Source: an uncultured Erysipelotrichaceae bacterium | GTDB taxonomy: Bacteria > Bacillota_I > Bacilli_A > RFN20 > CAG-826 | Assembly: GCA_902796125.1 (NCBI GenBank) | Contig: CADBNT010000068.1 | Coordinates: forward strand, 1 to 40,098 | Reading direction: 5' to 3' | DNA: 40,098 nucleotides | Part shown: positions 6,555-36,155 of the stretch, one piece after another | Layout: each line of letters begins with the position of its first letter | Numbering within the stretch: position 1 is the stretch's first letter | The notes under the pieces: model-generated | Database searches by the model: none | What the model was told of the DNA's origin: nothing | What the model saw: only the letters and a program-made list of their open reading frames with translations | Translations under genes and position numbers: made by a program

Positions 6555-6592
6555 TTAATTATTCATTTGTGTACGAAAGGAGATGAGTAAAG

Positions 6593-6766
6593 ATGCCAAA
6601 AACAGTTGTTCGTGAAAATGAAACATTAGACGAAGCCCTTCGTCGTTTCAAACGTCAAGTTAATAAATCTGGCGTTCTCCTTGAAGCGCGCAAAAGAGAG
6701 TTCTATCTCAAACCTGGTCTCAAACGCAAAATGAAAAGCGAAATGGCCAGACGTAAATCATACTAA
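6593..6766 (+). CDS. rpsU: 30S ribosomal protein S21
   Basis: A 57-residue basic small-subunit protein. It reads [19 protein letters not shown] and ends [10 protein letters not shown], which is the full and typical S21 sequence for Bacilli. A strong AAAGGAGATGA ribosome site precedes the ATG. S21 lies at the 3' end of the platform near the anti-Shine-Dalgarno. The usual neighbour yqeY is missing. A strong terminator follows 21 bp after the stop. Confidence 0.97.
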
Positions 6767-6787
6767 TTGCTAGTATATAAAAAAATT

Positions 6788-6813
6788 AGGAAGACAGTAG
6801 TCTTCCTTTTTTC
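6788..6813 (+). terminator. Rho-independent terminator after rpsU
   Basis: Perfect 8 bp stem AGGAAGAC / GTCTTCCT with an AGTA loop, ending in a T-run. Confidence 0.93.
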
Positions 6814-6866
6814 TTGCTGTAACAAAATATATTTTCTTGTCCTATTCATGGGTAGGAGGAATATTT

Positions 6867-22313: not shown

Positions 22314-22529
22314 ATGGAACCAGGTGCAATTGTAGGTATTGCCATTGGCTGCGCTCTCGCCGGTGCGATTATCGGATTCTTCGTCTCAAGATGGTTCTTC
22401 AAACGCCAACTTCAAAAGAATCCTCCAATCAATGAAAACATGATCCGTGCTATGTTCATGCAGATGGGTAGAAAACCTTCTGAAGCGCAAGTTAGAGCGG
22501 TCATGAATTCGATGAAACGCAACAGCTAA
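22314..22529 (+). CDS. yneF: YneF-family (UPF0154) small membrane protein
   Basis: A 71-residue protein with one N-terminal transmembrane helix (about 5-25, VGIAIGCALAGAIIGFFVS), then a basic stretch and the family tail NENMIRAMFMQMGRKPSEAQ. Function is not known. It follows efp by 9 bp with a GGAG ribosome site and ends in a terminator. plsY-parE nearby resembles the Bacillus yne region. Confidence 0.9.
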   Translation: MEPGAIVGIAIGCALAGAIIGFFVSRWFFKRQLQKNPPINENMIRAMFMQMGRKPSEAQVRAVMNSMKRNS

Positions 22530-23498: not shown

Positions 23499-23522
23499 TT
23501 TCTTATTCCTCCAAGTGTGAAA

Positions 23523-23552
23523 ATAATACAAAAAAACTACGTTACTTTTCAA
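23523..23552 (-). promoter_or_regulatory. Promoter for plsY
   Basis: On the minus strand TTGAAA and TATTAT with an 18 bp spacer. It overlaps the -35 region of the divergent parE promoter, so the two may compete for polymerase. Confidence 0.65.
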
Positions 23553-23570
23553 CCTTTATTTTGTTATAAT
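23542..23570 (+). promoter_or_regulatory. Promoter for parE-parC
   Basis: TTACTT, 17 bp spacer, then the extended -10 TGtTATAAT. About 25 bases of leader carry a TTGAGGA ribosome site before the ATG at 23601. Confidence 0.7.
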
Positions 23571-23600
23571 CAATTTTTGAAAATTGAGGAAAACAATAAT

Positions 23601-25544
23601 ATGGCAGATACAAAAGCAAAATCAAGCTACTCAGCAGCCGACATCGAAATCCTTGAAGGTTTAGCTGGTGTTCGCAAAAGACCTGCAATGTATATCGGCT
23701 CCACAAATTTAACTGGTTTACATCATTTAGTTTGGGAAGTCATCGACAATTCTGTCGATGAAGCATTGAATGGCTTTGGCGAAACAATAACAATTACTAT
23801 CTTTAAAGACGGTTCTTTATCAGTTCTCGACGAAGGCCGTGGAATCCCTGTCGATATTCATCGACAAACCGGTATGCCTGCTGTTCAACTCATCTTTTCC
23901 ACCTTGCATTCTGGTGGTAAATTTTCCTCAAAAGTTTATGCCTCATCCGCTGGTCTACATGGTGTTGGTGCATCTGTCACAAACGCCTTATCTGAGTACT
24001 GCGATGTCACTGTTTTTAGAGATGGAAAGATCAATCATCTTCGTTTTGAAAACGGTGGTAAACTTGTTACTCCTCTAGAAGTTCTTGGTAATACCAAGAA
24101 GCATGGTACTTTAGTGAGATTCAAACCTGATTCAAGAATCTTCTCAAGTACAGATTTCAAACTAGACATTATTTCTAACCACGTACAAGAAAGTGCCTAT
24201 CTTTTAAAAGGTGTAAAATTCGTCGTTATTGATGAAAGAGTTAATCAAAAAGTTGAATTTTGCTATAAGGATGGTCTAAAAGAGTACGTTCAAAATTTAA
24301 ATCAAAACAAACAAGCTTTCGGAGATGTCATCACTTTCGAAGGAAGTGATGATTCCATTAAAATCGATGTCGCAATCCAATATTGTGCTCAAGATTATGC
24401 AGAATCTATCTATTCTTACGCTAATAACGTTAGAACTAGAGACGGTGGTACCCACGAATCAGGCTTCAAAGCTGGTATTACAAAAGCAGTTAATGATTAC
24501 GCCGAAGAAAATTCATTACTACGCGGAAAAGCCAAGTTAGAAGGTAGTGATATTCGTGAAGGTTTAACGGCAGTAATTTCCTTACAAATACCTGAACAAA
24601 AGCTCGAATATGAAGGACAAACTAAGCAAAAACTAGGTACTCCTGAAGCTTTGCCTATCTTAACTAACTTTATTTATAATAACTTCAGTTATTATCTTAA
24701 TGAACACAAAGAATTCGCAGTTACATTAGTGAAGAAATGTATCGATTCACAAGTAGCAAGAATTGCAGCAAGAAAAGCTAAAGATGAAGCAAGATCCGCT
24801 AAAAAACAAAAAGTGGAAATGATTCTTTCTGATAAGCTTACTCCAGCTCAATCAAAAGACTATGATCGCAACGAACTTTTCATCGTTGAAGGTGAGTCTG
24901 CTGGTGGTACAGCTCGTAAGGGCAGAGATAGACTTCATCAAGCGATTCTACCACTACGTGGTAAACCATTAAACACTGATGCAATTGCTCTTGATAAAAT
25001 GATGAAAAATGAGGAGATTGCAACCATTGTAAATACCATTGGTGCTGGTATTGGCGAATCCTTTAACGCCGATAATTCTCACTATGGGAAAGTCATCATC
25101 ATGACCGATGCTGATACCGATGGAGCGCACATTCAAACCTTACTTCTTACATTTTTCTATCACTATATGCGACCACTCATCTTAAAAGGAAAGCTATTTG
25201 TTGCACTTCCGCCTTTATATAGAGTGAGTCGTGAAATTAATCACAAAACTGTACAAGAATATGCTTGGGATGACATCGATTTGGCTGAAGCCAAAAAACG
25301 TGTTGGTCCAGGCTCAAAAGTTTCCCGTTACAAAGGTCTTGGTGAGATGAACGCTGACCAGCTTTGGGAAACAACAATGGATCCAAAGACTCGTCAACTT
25401 TTAAAAGTGACAATTGAAGACCCATTACTCGCTGAACAAAGAGTCAAAATTCTCATGGGAAATGACACCACAGTGAGACGTCAATGGGTTGAAGAAAATG
25501 TTAACTTCAACGAAGTTGATAGCTTTATTGATGAGGTGAAATAA
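23601..25544 (+). CDS. parE: DNA topoisomerase IV subunit B
   Basis: ATPase subunit of topoisomerase IV, which unlinks daughter chromosomes. It has 647 residues. The GHKL ATPase has EVIDNSVDEAL, DEGRGIPV and GLHGVGASVTNALSE. The TOPRIM part has FIVEGESAGGTARKGRDR and MTDADTDGAHI. Assignment to ParE rather than GyrB rests mainly on the plsY-parE-parC context. The frame runs back to 23517 but MADTKAKSS follows a ribosome site and the promoter. The stop is 1 bp before parC. Confidence 0.95.
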   Translation: MADTKAKSSYSAADIEILEGLAGVRKRPAMYIGSTNLTGLHHLVWEVIDNSVDEALNGFGETITITIFKDGSLSVLDEGRGIPVDIHRQTGMPAVQLIFSTLHSGGKFSSKVYASSAGLHGVGASVTNALSEYCDVTVFRDGKINHLRFENGGKLVTPLEVLGNTKKHGTLVRFKPDSRIFSSTDFKLDIISNHVQESAYLLKGVKFVVIDERVNQKVEFCYKDGLKEYVQNLNQNKQAFGDVITFEGSDDSIKIDVAIQYCAQDYAESIYSYANNVRTRDGGTHESGFKAGITKAVNDYAEENSLLRGKAKLEGSDIREGLTAVISLQIPEQKLEYEGQTKQKLGTPEALPILTNFIYNNFSYYLNEHKEFAVTLVKKCIDSQVARIAARKAKDEARSAKKQKVEMILSDKLTPAQSKDYDRNELFIVEGESAGGTARKGRDRLHQAILPLRGKPLNTDAIALDKMMKNEEIATIVNTIGAGIGESFNADNSHYGKVIIMTDADTDGAHIQTLLLTFFYHYMRPLILKGKLFVALPPLYRVSREINHKTVQEYAWDDIDLAEAKKRVGPGSKVSRYKGLGEMNADQLWETTMDPKTRQLLKVTIEDPLLAEQRVKILMGNDTTVRRQWVEENVNFNEVDSFIDEVK

Positions 25545-25545
25545 T

Positions 25546-28182
25546 ATGGCAAAAAAGATTGTAACACCTGAAGTAGAAATCGTTGAAAATATCCATAACG
25601 AGACCATGGAAGAAATCATGTCCACTCGTTATGCAACATATGCAAAATACGTTATCCAAGATCGTGCTATTCCTGATGCTAGAGACGGATTAAAACCTGT
25701 CCAAAGACGTATCATTTATTCCATGTATAAAGAGGGTAATATTTTTACTCGTCCAACTAGAAAATGTGCTCATACAGTTGGGGCTGTTATGGGTGCTTAT
25801 CACCCACATGGTGATACTTCAATTTATGAAGCAATGGTTAGAATGAGCCAAGACTGGAAAGTTTCTGTCCCATTAATAGACTTCCAAGGTAATAATGGTT
25901 CAATCGATGCTGACCCACCAGCAGCATATCGTTACACTGAAGCACGTTTAAGCCAAATCGCTGAAGAAATGATTCGCGACATCGAAAAAGACACCGTTGA
26001 TATGGCTCTTACTTTCGATGATAAAGACTTTGAACCTGTGGTTATGCCAGCAAGATTTCCAAACCTTCTTGTCAACGGTTCCGAAGGTATTGCAGTTGCA
26101 ATAGCAACTGAAATCCCAACTCACAACCTCAAAGAGGTTATTGATGCTGTCATTTATCGCATTGGTCATGTCAGGGTTGAACCGCTCGATTTAATGGAAT
26201 TTGTAAAAGGTCCAGATTTCCCAACTGGAGGTATCATTTATAACTCTCAAGGACTAAAAGATATCTATGAAACCGGTAGGGGAAGAATCGAAGTCGCTTC
26301 CAAAACTGAAATCGTTGATAATGGCAAGGAAAAAGCCATTATTGTTACCGAAATCCCATTCAAAGCTGTCAAAAAGCAACTTGTTTATGAGATTGATATG
26401 CTTCGTTATAACAAAACTCTTCCTGGTATCCAGGAAGTTAGAGACGAATCCGACCGTCACGGTATGAGAATCGTCATCGAAGTTAAAAAAGATGCGAATG
26501 TTAATGTCATTCACAAATACTTAATGAATAAATCCGGTTTAAAGACTGGTTATTCAGCAAACATGGTTGCAATTGTTAATGGCTCGCCAAAGACAATGAA
26601 TCTTCTTGATTTTGTGGATTGCTACATTGAACATCAAGTCGATGTTATTACAAGAAGAAGCAATTTTGATCTTAAAAAATGTGAATCTCGACTCACCATC
26701 GTTGAAGGCTTAATTAAAGCCATCTCAATCCTTGATGAAGTAGTGGCAATTATTCGTTCAAGCAAGGACAAACAAGATGCCAAACTCAACCTCCAAAAGA
26801 AGTATGGTTTTAGCGAGGAACAGAGTGAAGCTATCGTCATGTTACAACTTTATAAGTTGTCTAACACCGATATTACTACGCTCGAGAATGAGAAAAAGAC
26901 CCTTGAAAAAACTATCGAATATCTCCATGGAATTTTGGAAGATAGAAAGAAACTTGATCGCCTTTTAATTTCCGATTTAAAAGCAATTGCTAATAAGTAT
27001 GGAACTGAAAGAAAAACTCAAATTGTCGAGAAGGGTGAAACAGCTCAAATCGATAAGCGCGATTTAATCGCAAAAGAAGACGTTATGGTGGCTGTAACTC
27101 GTGATGGCTATATCAAACACAGTTCCATCAAATCTTATCGTTCTAGTGGCGATAATGCTCTTCCAGGACTAAAAGAAGGCGATGTTTGTGTCTATTCTGG
27201 TCAAGCTACCACAACTGATTACTTAATATGTTTTACAAATGTTGGTAATTTCCTTTATATTCCAATCCATGAAGTTATGGAAAACAAGTGGAAAGAGGAA
27301 GGTAAACACATCAACTATCTCATTAATTTAAATCCTAATGAAAAAATAGTGCGTGCGTACACGGTTGAGAAATTTAGAGAAGATCTATTCTTTGTTCTAA
27401 CCTCAAAAAGAGGACAAATTAAACGTTTACGTTTAAGTGATTTCTCAGTCGTCCGTTATTCTAAGCCTCTTACATGTATGAAACTTCTAAGCGATGATAC
27501 TCTCGCTGATGTTACGTTTACAACCGGAAATAGTAATTTAGCCATCTTCTTAAACGATGGCGACGCCATCATGTTTAATGAAAACGATCTTCCAATGGCT
27601 GGAATGAGAAGCGGTGGTGTTAAGTCAGTTTCTAAGATGAATGGAGCAACAGTTACAAGCGTTTTAGCCTATGAGCAAGAAGAATCTGGCAAGGTTGTTT
27701 TAATCACTGATAAAGCTTGTGTTAGAATCTATGACATCAGCAAATTAGACTGCTCTTCACGTCTTGGAAAAACAAGCGTAATCTTTAGATCATTTAAGTC
27801 TGACGAACATAATTTAGTGCTTGCTAAAAAGGTTGTTCCAAACGTCGAAAAAATGCATTTTAGATTCTTAAATAATCTCAAAGAGATTAGCGAGTTCGAT
27901 GTTGATGACTTCCATCTCACTCCAATGGACCGCTATGCTAAACAAACAGTGGACATGGCAAAACGTATCCGATTAGAGATTCCGTTCCTCGAAGGTGATG
28001 ACTTTATTTCAAAGAATGTTGTCTCGCACGAAATCAAACGTCCAGAATCTGAAATTGTGACCGAAGAAGCCATCGTTGGTCCATCAACTGAAGAGAAGAA
28101 AAAAATCGAAAAAGTTGAAGAAGAGGAAAAAGGTTTCCAACAAATCTCCATCTTCGATGACGACTTCGATGAAAATAACTAA
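25546..28182 (+). CDS. parC: DNA topoisomerase IV subunit A
   Basis: DNA-cutting subunit of topoisomerase IV. It has 878 residues. The catalytic Tyr lies in AAYRYTEARL, the helix-turn-helix region has HPHGDTSIYEAMVRM (Thr at the position that is Ser80 in many ParC proteins; this may be natural in the lineage). A coiled region and a six-blade C-terminal DNA-wrapping domain follow (from about 500), with an acidic C-terminal tail (EKVEEEEKG). It lacks the GyrA-box sequence QRRGGKG as far as I can see, supporting ParC. A strong terminator follows. Confidence 0.95.
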   Translation: MAKKIVTPEVEIVENIHNETMEEIMSTRYATYAKYVIQDRAIPDARDGLKPVQRRIIYSMYKEGNIFTRPTRKCAHTVGAVMGAYHPHGDTSIYEAMVRMSQDWKVSVPLIDFQGNNGSIDADPPAAYRYTEARLSQIAEEMIRDIEKDTVDMALTFDDKDFEPVVMPARFPNLLVNGSEGIAVAIATEIPTHNLKEVIDAVIYRIGHVRVEPLDLMEFVKGPDFPTGGIIYNSQGLKDIYETGRGRIEVASKTEIVDNGKEKAIIVTEIPFKAVKKQLVYEIDMLRYNKTLPGIQEVRDESDRHGMRIVIEVKKDANVNVIHKYLMNKSGLKTGYSANMVAIVNGSPKTMNLLDFVDCYIEHQVDVITRRSNFDLKKCESRLTIVEGLIKAISILDEVVAIIRSSKDKQDAKLNLQKKYGFSEEQSEAIVMLQLYKLSNTDITTLENEKKTLEKTIEYLHGILEDRKKLDRLLISDLKAIANKYGTERKTQIVEKGETAQIDKRDLIAKEDVMVAVTRDGYIKHSSIKSYRSSGDNALPGLKEGDVCVYSGQATTTDYLICFTNVGNFLYIPIHEVMENKWKEEGKHINYLINLNPNEKIVRAYTVEKFREDLFFVLTSKRGQIKRLRLSDFSVVRYSKPLTCMKLLSDDTLADVTFTTGNSNLAIFLNDGDAIMFNENDLPMAGMRSGGVKSVSKMNGATVTSVLAYEQEESGKVVLITDKACVRIYDISKLDCSSRLGKTSVIFRSFKSDEHNLVLAKKVVPNVEKMHFRFLNNLKEISEFDVDDFHLTPMDRYAKQTVDMAKRIRLEIPFLEGDDFISKNVVSHEIKRPESEIVTEEAIVGPSTEEKKKIEKVEEEEKGFQQISIFDDDFDENN

Positions 28183-31074: not shown

Positions 31075-31392
31075 ATGGACAAGATTACAAAATTAGCAAA
31101 GAAAGTTCTCGAAGATCATAAAGCCGAGGATGTAGTGGTCATCGATGTAAAGGAAAAGACACCATTCGCTGATTATTACGTTTTAGCAACAGCGACAAAT
31201 AACCGCCAACTCAACGCCTTAGCAGAAATTGTTGAAGAGGAACTTGAGAAAGCAAAATTCTCAGTCGGCCACATTGAAGGAAAACCTGAATCTGGTTGGA
31301 TCTTAATTGACGCTCATCACGTGATAATTAATATCTTCAGTAGAGAAGAACGTGAGAGAATTTCCTTAGACGAATTGCTTGCTCGTAAATAA
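31075..31392 (+). CDS. rsfS: Ribosomal silencing factor RsfS
   Basis: Binds L14 on the 50S subunit and blocks subunit joining under poor nutrition. It has 105 residues. Family motifs: DKITKLAKKVLEDHKAED at the start, FADYYVLATATNNRQ, and GKPESGWILIDAHHVIINIF. It is the last gene of the yqeG operon, ends in a terminator, and is the last rightward housekeeping gene before the polarity switch. Confidence 0.96.
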   Translation: MDKITKLAKKVLEDHKAEDVVVIDVKEKTPFADYYVLATATNNRQLNALAEIVEEELEKAKFSVGHIEGKPESGWILIDAHHVIINIFSREERERISLDELLARK

Positions 31393-31411
31393 GATAATCA
31401 ATAGAAGATAG

Positions 31412-31438
31412 ACGTGCTGAAGGGCACGTTTTCTTTTT
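31412..31438 (+). terminator. Rho-independent terminator after rsfS
   Basis: Stem ACGTGC / GCACGT with a TGAAGG loop, followed by TTTTCTTTTT. It ends just where the first DnaA box begins. Confidence 0.9.
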
Positions 31439-31445
31439 ATCCACA
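31437..31445 (+). promoter_or_regulatory. DnaA box 1
   Basis: TTATCCACA, an exact match to the high-affinity DnaA box, 29 bp left of the dif-like site and touching the rsfS terminator T-run. Confidence 0.6.
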
Positions 31446-31474
31446 CTTTTTAATACAAACTTGAAAACAATAGA

Positions 31475-31502
31475 ACTTCGTATAATGACTATTATGTTAA
31501 CC
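31475..31502 (+). other. dif-like chromosome-dimer resolution site
   Basis: Left (XerC-type) arm ACTTCGTATAA at 31475-31485, 6 bp centre TGACTA, right (XerD-type) arm TTATGTTAACC at 31492-31502. The 11-6-11 layout and both arms resemble known dif sites; from memory, 18 of 22 arm positions match Bacillus subtilis dif, and the right arm shares TTATGTTAA with E. coli. It lies at the point where gene direction flips from rightward to leftward, as expected for the terminus. A XerD-type recombinase gene is about 4 kb away. Confidence 0.85.
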
Positions 31503-31588
31503 AAATAACCTAAAATAAAGAATTAATCGAATAAAATAGTTAATCGAAGTCTTTGAATTAGCGACTTAACAATAGTCTAAAACTAGAG

Positions 31589-31597
31589 TTATCCACA
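31589..31597 (+). promoter_or_regulatory. DnaA box 2
   Basis: A second exact TTATCCACA in the same orientation, 152 bp from box 1. The pair brackets the dif-like site. Confidence 0.6.
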
Positions 31598-31611
31598 TAA
31601 AATTGAAAATC

Positions 31612-31636
31612 TAAAACTACTAATTATCTACTAATT
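31612..31636 (-). repeat. TAGTA repeat pair, 11 bp spacing, after the ABC permease
   Basis: On the minus strand AATTAGTAGATAATTAGTAG. Cores at 31629-31633 and 31618-31622 are 11 bp apart. A third TAGTA at 31647-31651 is out of phase. It lies about 50 bp after the permease stop in sense orientation. Confidence 0.6.
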
Positions 31637-31686
31637 GTTAGTTCCCTACTATCAAATTTCTCGATTAGATAATATATGTTTTCGCC

Positions 31687-32460
31687 CTATTTGCTATGAG
31701 CGTTTTTGTTCAATTTTCCTTTAACAATCATTGCTCCAAGCGTAATTAAAAGCATGAGAACAACTGCGATTGTTGTATAGGCAAATACACCTGTCATATT
31801 TGTTGGATCATCCACTTGTGCACCACGGATTAAACAGCCTATTCCATTCTTAGTTGAGCCGGTAATGACCTCTGCCATAATCTCTACTTTGAACGACAAA
31901 GAGAAGCTTGAGACAACGCCAACAACAATATACGGAATAGCGATTGGAAGTCTTACTTTAAATAAAGTATTGAGCCTTTTGGAGCCATCCACGCGAGTTG
32001 ATTCAATGATATTTTGGTCAATATTCTTAAGTCCACCCGCAATTGCTTCATAAAGAATTGGAAGACAAATAAGAATAACAACATACAAAGGTGCGTTGCT
32101 TGATCCTGCTAATACGATGAATAGAAAAACAACTGCCGCCGTTGGAATAGCTTTAAGTACAGTCATTGTTGGAGTTAGGAAATGATACATCTTTTCGTTA
32201 TCGTACACTAGCATAGCTAGTAAGAAGGCTAAAACAAAGGATATAGCAAAACCAATAAGTAAGCGTAGAAGAGAATAACCGATGCTCACCCATGTATCTA
32301 AATTTCCAAGCAGTTTAAAAGCTTCACCAAAGGTGACGATTGGATTTGGAACAATCATCTCATTGAAATCGATGAGAATGGAAATTATCCACCATAGTCC
32401 AATAAAGAAGATGGCGCCATATAAAAACAACAGATATTTATTAGAAATAAATTTCTTCAT
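31687..32460 (-). CDS. ABC transporter permease, NitT/TauT (SsuC-like) type
   Basis: Membrane subunit of an importer, 257 residues with about six transmembrane helices. The ATPase-contact loop is EAIAGGLKNIDQNIIESTRVDG, split as EAIAGGL near residue 138 and the conserved Gly in VDG. It is related to permeases for nitrate, taurine, sulfonate or thiamine precursors; the substrate cannot be read from sequence. It overlaps the binding-protein gene by 20 bp. No ATPase gene accompanies it, so the ATPase must be supplied from elsewhere. Confidence 0.88.
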   Translation of the reverse strand: MKKFISNKYLLFLYGAIFFIGLWWIISILIDFNEMIVPNPIVTFGEAFKLLGNLDTWVSIGYSLLRLLIGFAISFVLAFLLAMLVYDNEKMYHFLTPTMTVLKAIPTAAVVFLFIVLAGSSNAPLYVVILICLPILYEAIAGGLKNIDQNIIESTRVDGSKRLNTLFKVRLPIAIPYIVVGVVSSFSLSFKVEIMAEVITGSTKNGIGCLIRGAQVDDPTNMTGVFAYTTIAVVLMLLITLGAMIVKGKLNKNAHSK

Positions 32461-33376
32461 TAGTCTCCGCTATATTAAAGATGGAAAGGAATTTGTCGAT
32501 TCCAGCTTTGTTTTCTTTAGCGTATTTAAATCCAAGACCTAAACCATTCTTTTTTTCACCTATGACAGATGGAATGATGTCTGGATTAACGCCATAAAAA
32601 GATGATGGATTAGAAGCTTTCTTAATGCCTTCCACCACTGATTCAGAATTTTTAAGTCCTGCTTCAATGTCTTCTTTTAAGGAATTTAAGAATGATTTTA
32701 CGAGTTCTTTATCTGAATCTTTGTTTACAAAGACTGAAGCTTGGAACATTTCTAGTCCGTTACTTTTTTGTTTATAAAGTTCTTGAATGTTTGAGTAAAC
32801 GCTACGATCTGGTTTTTGTCCTAAAACGGTCGAAACAGCTGGTTCTGCAAGCAAAACATAATCGACTGGATGATTGTCGTCAGCAAGGTTGATTCCGCTC
32901 GCTAAACACTTGGATGCGTCACTTGCTGCAGTCACATAGTGAATTCCGTCATTTAATTCAGTTCCATAAACATAATGGAAAAGTAAATCTGGTAAGTTTC
33001 CTTGTTGGAATAAAACGATGTAGTCATCTTTATCCATAACTCCATCAGCGTCATGCCCGGTAGCACATACGAATAAATTACCAAAGGTAATAGTTGCTGC
33101 GATTTGATAATTTACACCTTTATTTACAATTGCTTGGATGCCAGCATTTGTTGGTAAAACGACGATGTCTTTAGATGCTTTGACCATAGTTGGTAAGATT
33201 CCTGTCGCTGCATCAGCATTTGTTTCAAATAAAGGATCTTCAGCGTATTTATAAAAGGCAACTGCTGGGGCTCCTGTTGGAGCAATAATAGATAAGTTAT
33301 GTTCATATGGAGCAATACTTGAACAACTAGCGAGTATTGGCGCTACCATCAGTAATGTAATTAATTGATTTTTCAT
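32441..33376 (-). CDS. ABC transporter substrate-binding lipoprotein, NitT/TauT-like
   Basis: Surface lipoprotein of 311 residues. A short signal peptide ends in a lipobox (ILASC, Cys17), so it is lipid-anchored. The mature part starts with APTGAPAVAFYKYA, a strand-turn typical of NMT1/NitT-type periplasmic-binding fold proteins. It is cotranscribed with the permease. The start codon follows AAGAAGGAAA. The gene diverges from a Crp-type regulator with a CRP-like palindrome between them. The ligand is unknown. Confidence 0.87.
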   Translation of the reverse strand: MKNQLITLLMVAPILASCSSIAPYEHNLSIIAPTGAPAVAFYKYAEDPLFETNADAATGILPTMVKASKDIVVLPTNAGIQAIVNKGVNYQIAATITFGNLFVCATGHDADGVMDKDDYIVLFQQGNLPDLLFHYVYGTELNDGIHYVTAASDASKCLASGINLADDNHPVDYVLLAEPAVSTVLGQKPDRSVYSNIQELYKQKSNGLEMFQASVFVNKDSDKELVKSFLNSLKEDIEAGLKNSESVVEGIKKASNPSSFYGVNPDIIPSVIGEKKNGLGLGFKYAKENKAGIDKFLSIFNIAETNEEIYF

Positions 33377-35276: not shown

Positions 35277-36155
35277 CTATTTTCTTTTGCTAAACAAATC
35301 ATATGCTGAGAGAATTCGCTTGGTCGAAATATTTGTGTATATTTCAGTTGTGGCAATGTTGGTGTGTCCAAGCATTTCTTGCACTGCTCTAAGCTCTGCT
35401 CCTTGTTGAAGCATATGCGTAGCAAAACAGTGCCTAAGCGTATGAGGAGAAATTGTTTCAATTATTCCTGCTTCTTCAGCGTATTTCTTTACTTGTTTAA
35501 AGAAGAATTGACGGGATATTGGTTTTCCATATCTATTTAAAAATAGATAATCAGTATTTCTTCCTGGATTTTTCTTTCTAGGACCATGAACGTAGCGTTC
35601 CACGAACTCCAAGGCATATTCTCCAATAGGAACTTTTCTTTCTTTGTTCCCTTTACCGATTATATCGATGATTCCTTTTTGGAAATTAATTTGTTTAATC
35701 TTGACGGATAAAAGCTCACTGACACGAAGTCCTGAGGAATACATAACTTCAAGCATTGCTCTATCTCTTAATCCTTCGTCTTTTTCTATATCTGGTTGAT
35801 TAAGCAAAGCTTCAACTTCTTCTATGGAGATTGCAATTGGTAGTTTTTTCACTCCTTTTGGAGCTTCAAAAGGGACAATAGGATCAGAAATAATATGTTC
35901 CTTTTCCAAGAAAAGATAAAAATTCTTAGTGGATGATAGTCTCCTTAAAATTGTCTTTGTAGCGAGTTGATGACGAGATTGAATCCTAATGAAATCAGGA
36001 ATATCGGTAGGAAGAATGTCATCGGTCGTCTTTTTTGGAAGTGCCTTAAAAAACTGCCTTAAATCGTAGGAATAGTTTTTGATTGTTTCATTAGAAACAC
36101 CTTTCTCTACTCTAAGGTATTGGAAATATAGATCAATTGCATCATCGAGTTCCAT
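35277..36155 (-). CDS. xerD: Tyrosine recombinase XerD
   Basis: Site-specific recombinase that with XerC resolves chromosome dimers at dif. It has 292 residues. The N-terminal SAM-like domain spans about 1-100. Catalytic residues: Arg144, Lys168, His238, Arg241, His264 and nucleophile Tyr273. The closest named family is XerD, supported by the deoB neighbour. It is 1 bp after dinB in the same leftward unit. The dif-like site at 31475 is about 4 kb downstream. Whether it acts alone or with XerC is not seen here. Confidence 0.93.
   Translation of the reverse strand: MELDDAIDLYFQYLRVEKGVSNETIKNYSYDLRQFFKALPKKTTDDILPTDIPDFIRIQSRHQLATKTILRRLSSTKNFYLFLEKEHIISDPIVPFEAPKGVKKLPIAISIEEVEALLNQPDIEKDEGLRDRAMLEVMYSSGLRVSELLSVKIKQINFQKGIIDIIGKGNKERKVPIGEYALEFVERYVHGPRKKNPGRNTDYLFLNRYGKPISRQFFFKQVKKYAEEAGIIETISPHTLRHCFATHMLQQGAELRAVQEMLGHTNIATTEIYTNISTKRILSAYDLFSKRK

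Follow-up and report, generated by a model that had tools for sequence, protein, structure and literature searches.

Known dif systems and the site at 31475-31502

Sites of the XerCD-type dif are predicted in hundreds of genomes. In Escherichia coli, the XerD-binding arm contains the core TTATGTTAA, while the XerC arm begins with GGTGCG; xerD is not known to lie near dif. In Bacillus subtilis, where dif is the target of the CodV and RipX proteins (XerC and XerD, respectively), the ripX gene is located about half a megabase from the site. A different arrangement is that of streptococci and lactococci, where a single recombinase, XerS, acts on difSL, a site of 31 bp with an 11-bp centre (PMC5357621).

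The sequence considered here is found in an uncultured Erysipelotrichaceae bacterium, in a window of 40,098 nucleotides, which is the whole stretch of DNA that was analysed. We consider the 28 bp at positions 31475-31502 to be the chromosomal dif (dimer-resolution) site of this Bacilli genome, with a probability of about 96%. The computed support comes from the sequence, its uniqueness, its conservation in the family and the presence of XerC, XerD and an FtsK gamma domain, and its position on the chromosome is derived from relatives. The site itself is ordinary, and of a kind already well known. It shares with the B. subtilis dif the length of 28 bp, the 11-6-11 organization, the use of two recombinases and the terminus location; however, the B. 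subtilis centre is TATATA-like, while the centre in the window is TGACTA, and xerD lies 3.8 kb from dif, unlike in B. subtilis. The layout is also the same as in the E. coli dif/XerC-XerD/FtsK system, and the FtsK gamma domain is present in the window organism too; the XerD arm is near-identical to the E. coli core, and the XerC arm begins with ACTTCG. As in the difSL/XerS system, a recombinase gene is linked to its terminus site, but the window organism has a canonical site of 28 bp and a second recombinase. Compared with the Firmicutes dif consensus, the 28-mer has 3 mismatches and its arms are of the Firmicutes type.

Layout of the site and its position in the window

The 28-mer ACTTCGTATAATGACTATTATGTTAACC was read in the window sequence exactly where the earlier note had placed it. 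On the forward strand, it is composed of a left arm, ACTTCGTATAA (31475..31485), a 6-bp central, strand-exchange region, TGACTA (31486..31491), and a right arm, TTATGTTAACC (31492..31502), which faces xerD; both arms are conserved in the family. By analogy with the known XerCD/dif layout, the left arm is the predicted XerC-binding half-site and the right one, with its conserved sequence, the XerD-binding half-site. Two 11-bp half-sites around a 6-bp centre, for a total of 28 bp, correspond to the organization of XerCD/dif sites.

According to the ORF lists, the site is contained in a convergent intergenic region of 294 bp (31393..31686), limited by the end of rsfS at 31392 and by a leftward ABC permease gene at 31687. 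The rsfS gene (31075..31392, forward strand), encoding the ribosomal silencing factor (Pfam RsfS, E = 3e-27), is the last of the rightward run that ends at dif, and the site starts 82 bp past its stop codon. This region had been described as the longest gap of the window, which is correct by a narrow margin, the next one being of 282 bp (6555-6836), and provided that the genes are taken to include a 71-aa ORF at 22314-22529. Taking ORFs longer than 80 aa as genes, 28 of the 31 genes on the left are transcribed rightward and 7 of the 8 on the right leftward; thus, the convergence reported in the earlier note is confirmed, with counts that differ slightly from those given there (31 of 34 and 8 of 9). 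Past rsfS, 43 bp before dif, a forward-strand hairpin of 9 pairs with a T-rich tail (31410..31431) is suggestive of a terminator, the search having returned two such hairpins against 0.9 expected from shuffles. Rfam and tRNA scans of the whole window gave no matches.

Uniqueness and conservation of the site

The 28-mer is unique in the window and was never matched in 100 shuffles. Genomes were searched with the pattern ACTTCGTATAATNNNNATTATGTTAAC, allowing up to 3 mismatches. The scan for a single best hit proposed in the earlier note returned only one match in the 1.0-Mb assembly of the organism itself, where 0.0135 matches would be expected by chance (up to 3 mismatches in 2 x 1.0 Mb, with a mononucleotide model and 23 arm positions). 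Relatives also have almost always one site per chromosome; G068 and G109 each have a second match, at 3 mismatches. A match was present in 184 of the 224 genomes of the family, nearly always once, and in 163 of 196 genomes of the order (the majority of these 196 being from the same family), while the reversed pattern, used as a control, matched one family genome. One orthologous copy per genome was found in 29 of 35 genera. No match at up to 3 mismatches was obtained in the remaining 40 of the 224 family genomes, which is explained partly by incompleteness and partly by divergence.

Comparison of the 37 distinct sites of the family revealed nearly invariant arms, except for position 7, occupied by C or T, and for small changes at the far end: in the left arm every position except 6 and 7 is invariant, and in the right arm TTATGT is always conserved. 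Conversely, the middle 4 bases of the centre differ greatly from one species to the next (0.14-1.0 bits), unlike the T and A on either side, which are mostly kept. Invariant arms around a free centre are the pattern expected of recombinase half-sites flanking an exchange region. Other Bacilli families mostly have ATATAT or GTATAT at the centre; the family of the window organism has relaxed this TATATA-like sequence. Variation of the centre is also observed inside the genus of the organism. The family-wide motif, ACTTCGYATAATNNNNATTATGTWAAC, can be used to orient fragmented assemblies.

Xer recombinases and FtsK

The genome of the organism encodes two tyrosine recombinases above the Pfam cut-off, XerD on contig C68 and XerC on contig C91. 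The xerD gene (35277..36155, reverse strand) is transcribed toward dif, and its product, a site-specific tyrosine recombinase, matches TIGR02225 with E = 3e-95 and 318.9 bits, just under the curated cut-off of 329.6, against 290 bits with the XerC model. The neighbours of xerC are trmFO and topA at one end and rpsB-tsf at the other, and the XerC model ranked first for its product. Both proteins are 7-11 bits under the curated equivalog cut-offs, yet the correct model is the top one for each, and the XerS model is far under its cut-off for both (123 bits for XerD, with a cut-off of 267). A 914-aa open frame on contig C24 contains the FtsK gamma domain (PF09397, 47.7 bits, cut-off 30.6). Since xerC, xerD, the FtsK gamma domain and dif are all present, every part of a two-recombinase XerCD/dif/FtsK system is encoded.

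From the known XerCD/dif system we infer the binding of XerC and XerD, the activation by FtsK and the recombination. When recombination joins the sister chromosomes into a dimer, XerC and XerD would each bind one half-site; FtsK, located at the septum, would draw both terminus regions close to each other and touch XerD, and strand exchange would then begin at the 6-bp centre, leading to two monomers.

Position at the replication terminus

The assembly of the organism consists of 107 contigs, with dnaA on a separate contig of 15 kb; the position of the terminus was therefore analysed in relatives carrying the orthologous site, where skew was measured on sampled stretches. G213 is available as a single contig of 1,061,998 bp, with dif at 719,220 and dnaA at 203,776, so that 515 kb, or 48.5% of the circle, separate the two. 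In the stretches sampled, its GC skew has positive values from dnaA to dif and negative ones before dnaA and past dif, and gene direction follows the same course. G001 has an 879-kb contig on which the 20 kb preceding dif show a skew of +0.164 and the following 20 kb one of -0.164; a second flip falls in the interval 708-744 kb, beside dnaA at 713 kb. In both genomes the orthologous site is thus found at the skew switch, opposite the origin. In the window itself the skew is weak, goes with the orientation of the genes and changes sign before dif. The skew switch suggested as a check in the earlier note was therefore obtained in these two relatives, while the window has no clean switch at the site; its broader claim, that the site marks the replication terminus, is supported by the location opposite dnaA in G213 and by the flips of skew and polarity in G213 and G001.

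Third-position GC skew tracks the gene strand and not the replication strand, both in the window and in G032; thus, gene direction and skew do not provide independent evidence. In genus g3 (G025, G026, G031 and G032) the skew beside dif is reversed, negative before and positive after the site, while genes are still directed toward dif. Genes converge on dif from both sides since the two replication arms meet there. The site fixes the terminus, and hence the way in which the replichores are laid out, in a lineage that is mostly represented by fragmented metagenome assemblies.

Alternative explanations

Sites similar to dif are also carried by elements that exploit the Xer proteins and use XerCD (PMC5357621), and the 28-mer could be the integration site or the remnant of one of them, such as an IMEX-like phage or a plasmid with a pdif/cer-type site. 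This origin is extremely improbable, as it is contradicted by the single orthologous copy per genome found across most genera; moreover, the gene order in the relatives that were read out is one of fixed housekeeping genes around a single copy, the own genome has no second site within the mismatch limit, and no phage or plasmid gene was found among the window genes searched. The short distance from the rsfS stop codon and the partly palindromic arms would instead fit a conserved element that regulates or terminates the rsfS operon and merely resembles dif. We regard this as very unlikely, because a separate terminator-like hairpin precedes the site, the replichore switch coincides with the site in relatives, and its sequence is constant where the neighbouring genes change, as in the genera with inverted ABC permease and CRP-like genes.

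A third explanation is that the linked XerD acts alone on the site, in a single-recombinase system of the XerS/difSL or XerH/difH type. Its basis is the linkage of the gene to the site, the same found between xerS and difSL (PMC5357621). A second recombinase, XerC, is however encoded, the layout is 11-6-11 and not that of a 31-bp difSL with its 11-bp centre, and the linked protein scores 319 bits with the XerD model compared with the much lower value obtained with XerS. None of the features of XerS/difSL systems, i.e. a 31-bp site, an 11-bp centre and one XerS protein, is found here, so that this explanation is also hardly credible.

Linkage of xerD and dif

According to Kono et al. 2011, xerC is mostly found near dif and xerD mostly near the origin (PMC3025954); a close linkage of xerD to dif is thus contrary to the general picture. 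The earlier note had placed xerD about 4 kb away, in agreement with the 3.8 kb measured, and had used this closeness to support the terminus reading. Such use is not justified by general knowledge (PMC3025954), but the proximity is a real property of the lineage. No description of a xerD-dif linkage was found in the papers accessible to our search.

Relatives display the order parE-parC-yqeG-yqeH-nadD/yqeK-(rsfS)-dif-...-deoB-xerD-polIV-dxs-xseA, the same as in the window. Some genera have an inversion or a replacement of the genes lying between dif and deoB; where the inversion involves the ABC permease and CRP-like genes, the dif sequence is kept. In the window, the conserved terminus neighbourhood includes, on the forward strand, parE (23517..25544; topoisomerase IV subunit B; TIGR01058, E = 1.8e-262, 872 bits, cut-off 900) and parC (25546..28182; topoisomerase IV subunit A; TIGR01061, 847 bits, cut-off 813), the latter ending 3.3 kb from dif. 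The order of the parE-parC pair (23517-28182) near dif is conserved across the family. A 311-aa ORF (32441-33376) overlaps the ABC permease gene and has no Pfam or NCBIfam match; it is found beside the permease in relatives too, and, being kept there, it is probably a partner of this transporter.

Pairs of xerD and dif located on the same contig were tabulated by hand, leaving out about 16 genomes in which the two are on different contigs. Among the matches listed, at least 108 family pairs are separated by 0.15-7.2 kb, with a median of 3.6 kb; in all of them xerD is transcribed toward dif and the XerD arm faces xerD. The same linkage is found in G025, G031 and G032, bringing the total to at least 111 family pairs, at 0.1-7.2 kb. 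In the sample of the order and class, where some families are represented by one genome only, the distance is 0.7-7 kb in nearly all genomes of families f3-f6, f8, f12, f14-f17, f20, f21, f25 and f27, with the exception of one f5 genome, at 12 kb. It is mixed in f10 and f23, and reaches 51-236 kb in the Bacilli families f18, f19, f24 and f28. Among the other Bacilli families sampled, the majority have the linkage. The XerD arm points away from xerD in f8, f19, f24 and f28. In nearly all the linked Bacilli families the relative orientation of xerD and dif is fixed.

The linkage also has predictive value. Informative genomes were those without a match at 3 mismatches in which the sequence continues for at least 5 kb past xerD; in three of the four, a diverged dif (ACTTTCAATAAGGTATATTATGTTAACT, ACTTCGCATAATTTCCGTTATGTTGTTT and GATACGCATAATGACCATTATGTTAACC) was found 1.8-4.4 kb from xerD, on the expected side and in the expected orientation, while none was found in the 5.3 kb beyond xerD in the fourth. 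For two of these three genomes, shuffled versions of the stretch never did better than 6 mismatches; for the G153 stretch, 1 of 10 shuffles also reached 4 mismatches, making this the weakest of the diverged sites.

The linkage is the one surprising part of this system, and may reflect either selection or a gene order simply inherited in the quiet region around the terminus. A tentative proposal, to which we give rather less than even odds, is that xerD and dif, together with parE-parC in the family, form an old terminus module maintained by selection. On this doubtful but conceivable reading, the recombinase gene would have been kept, across much of Bacilli, no more than a few kb from its own site, with the XerD half-site nearly always facing it. 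A module of this kind, if real, could favour a local supply of XerD, or tie xerD to the DNA that is replicated last, close to the septum. The linkage itself shows that a recombinase gene can stay beside its site in a canonical two-recombinase system too, as it does in single-recombinase systems; thus, the origin of linked systems of the XerS/difSL type becomes a question that can be tested by comparative analysis.

Candidate FtsK guide motifs

The B. subtilis-type motif GAGMAGGG is too rare for judgement. Both GAAGAAG and GAAGAAGG are directed toward dif in relatives, the bias of GAAGAAG mostly following coding direction. The latter motif, selected from among many 8-mers, may guide FtsK in the lineage of the window organism; the window contains just 3 copies, one of them wrongly oriented. 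As for a Shine-Dalgarno origin, 1 of 15 intergenic copies is located within 15 nt of a start. GAAGAAGG is dif-directed on both replication arms in G001 and G213, and also outside genes, by 12 to 0 in an independent set.
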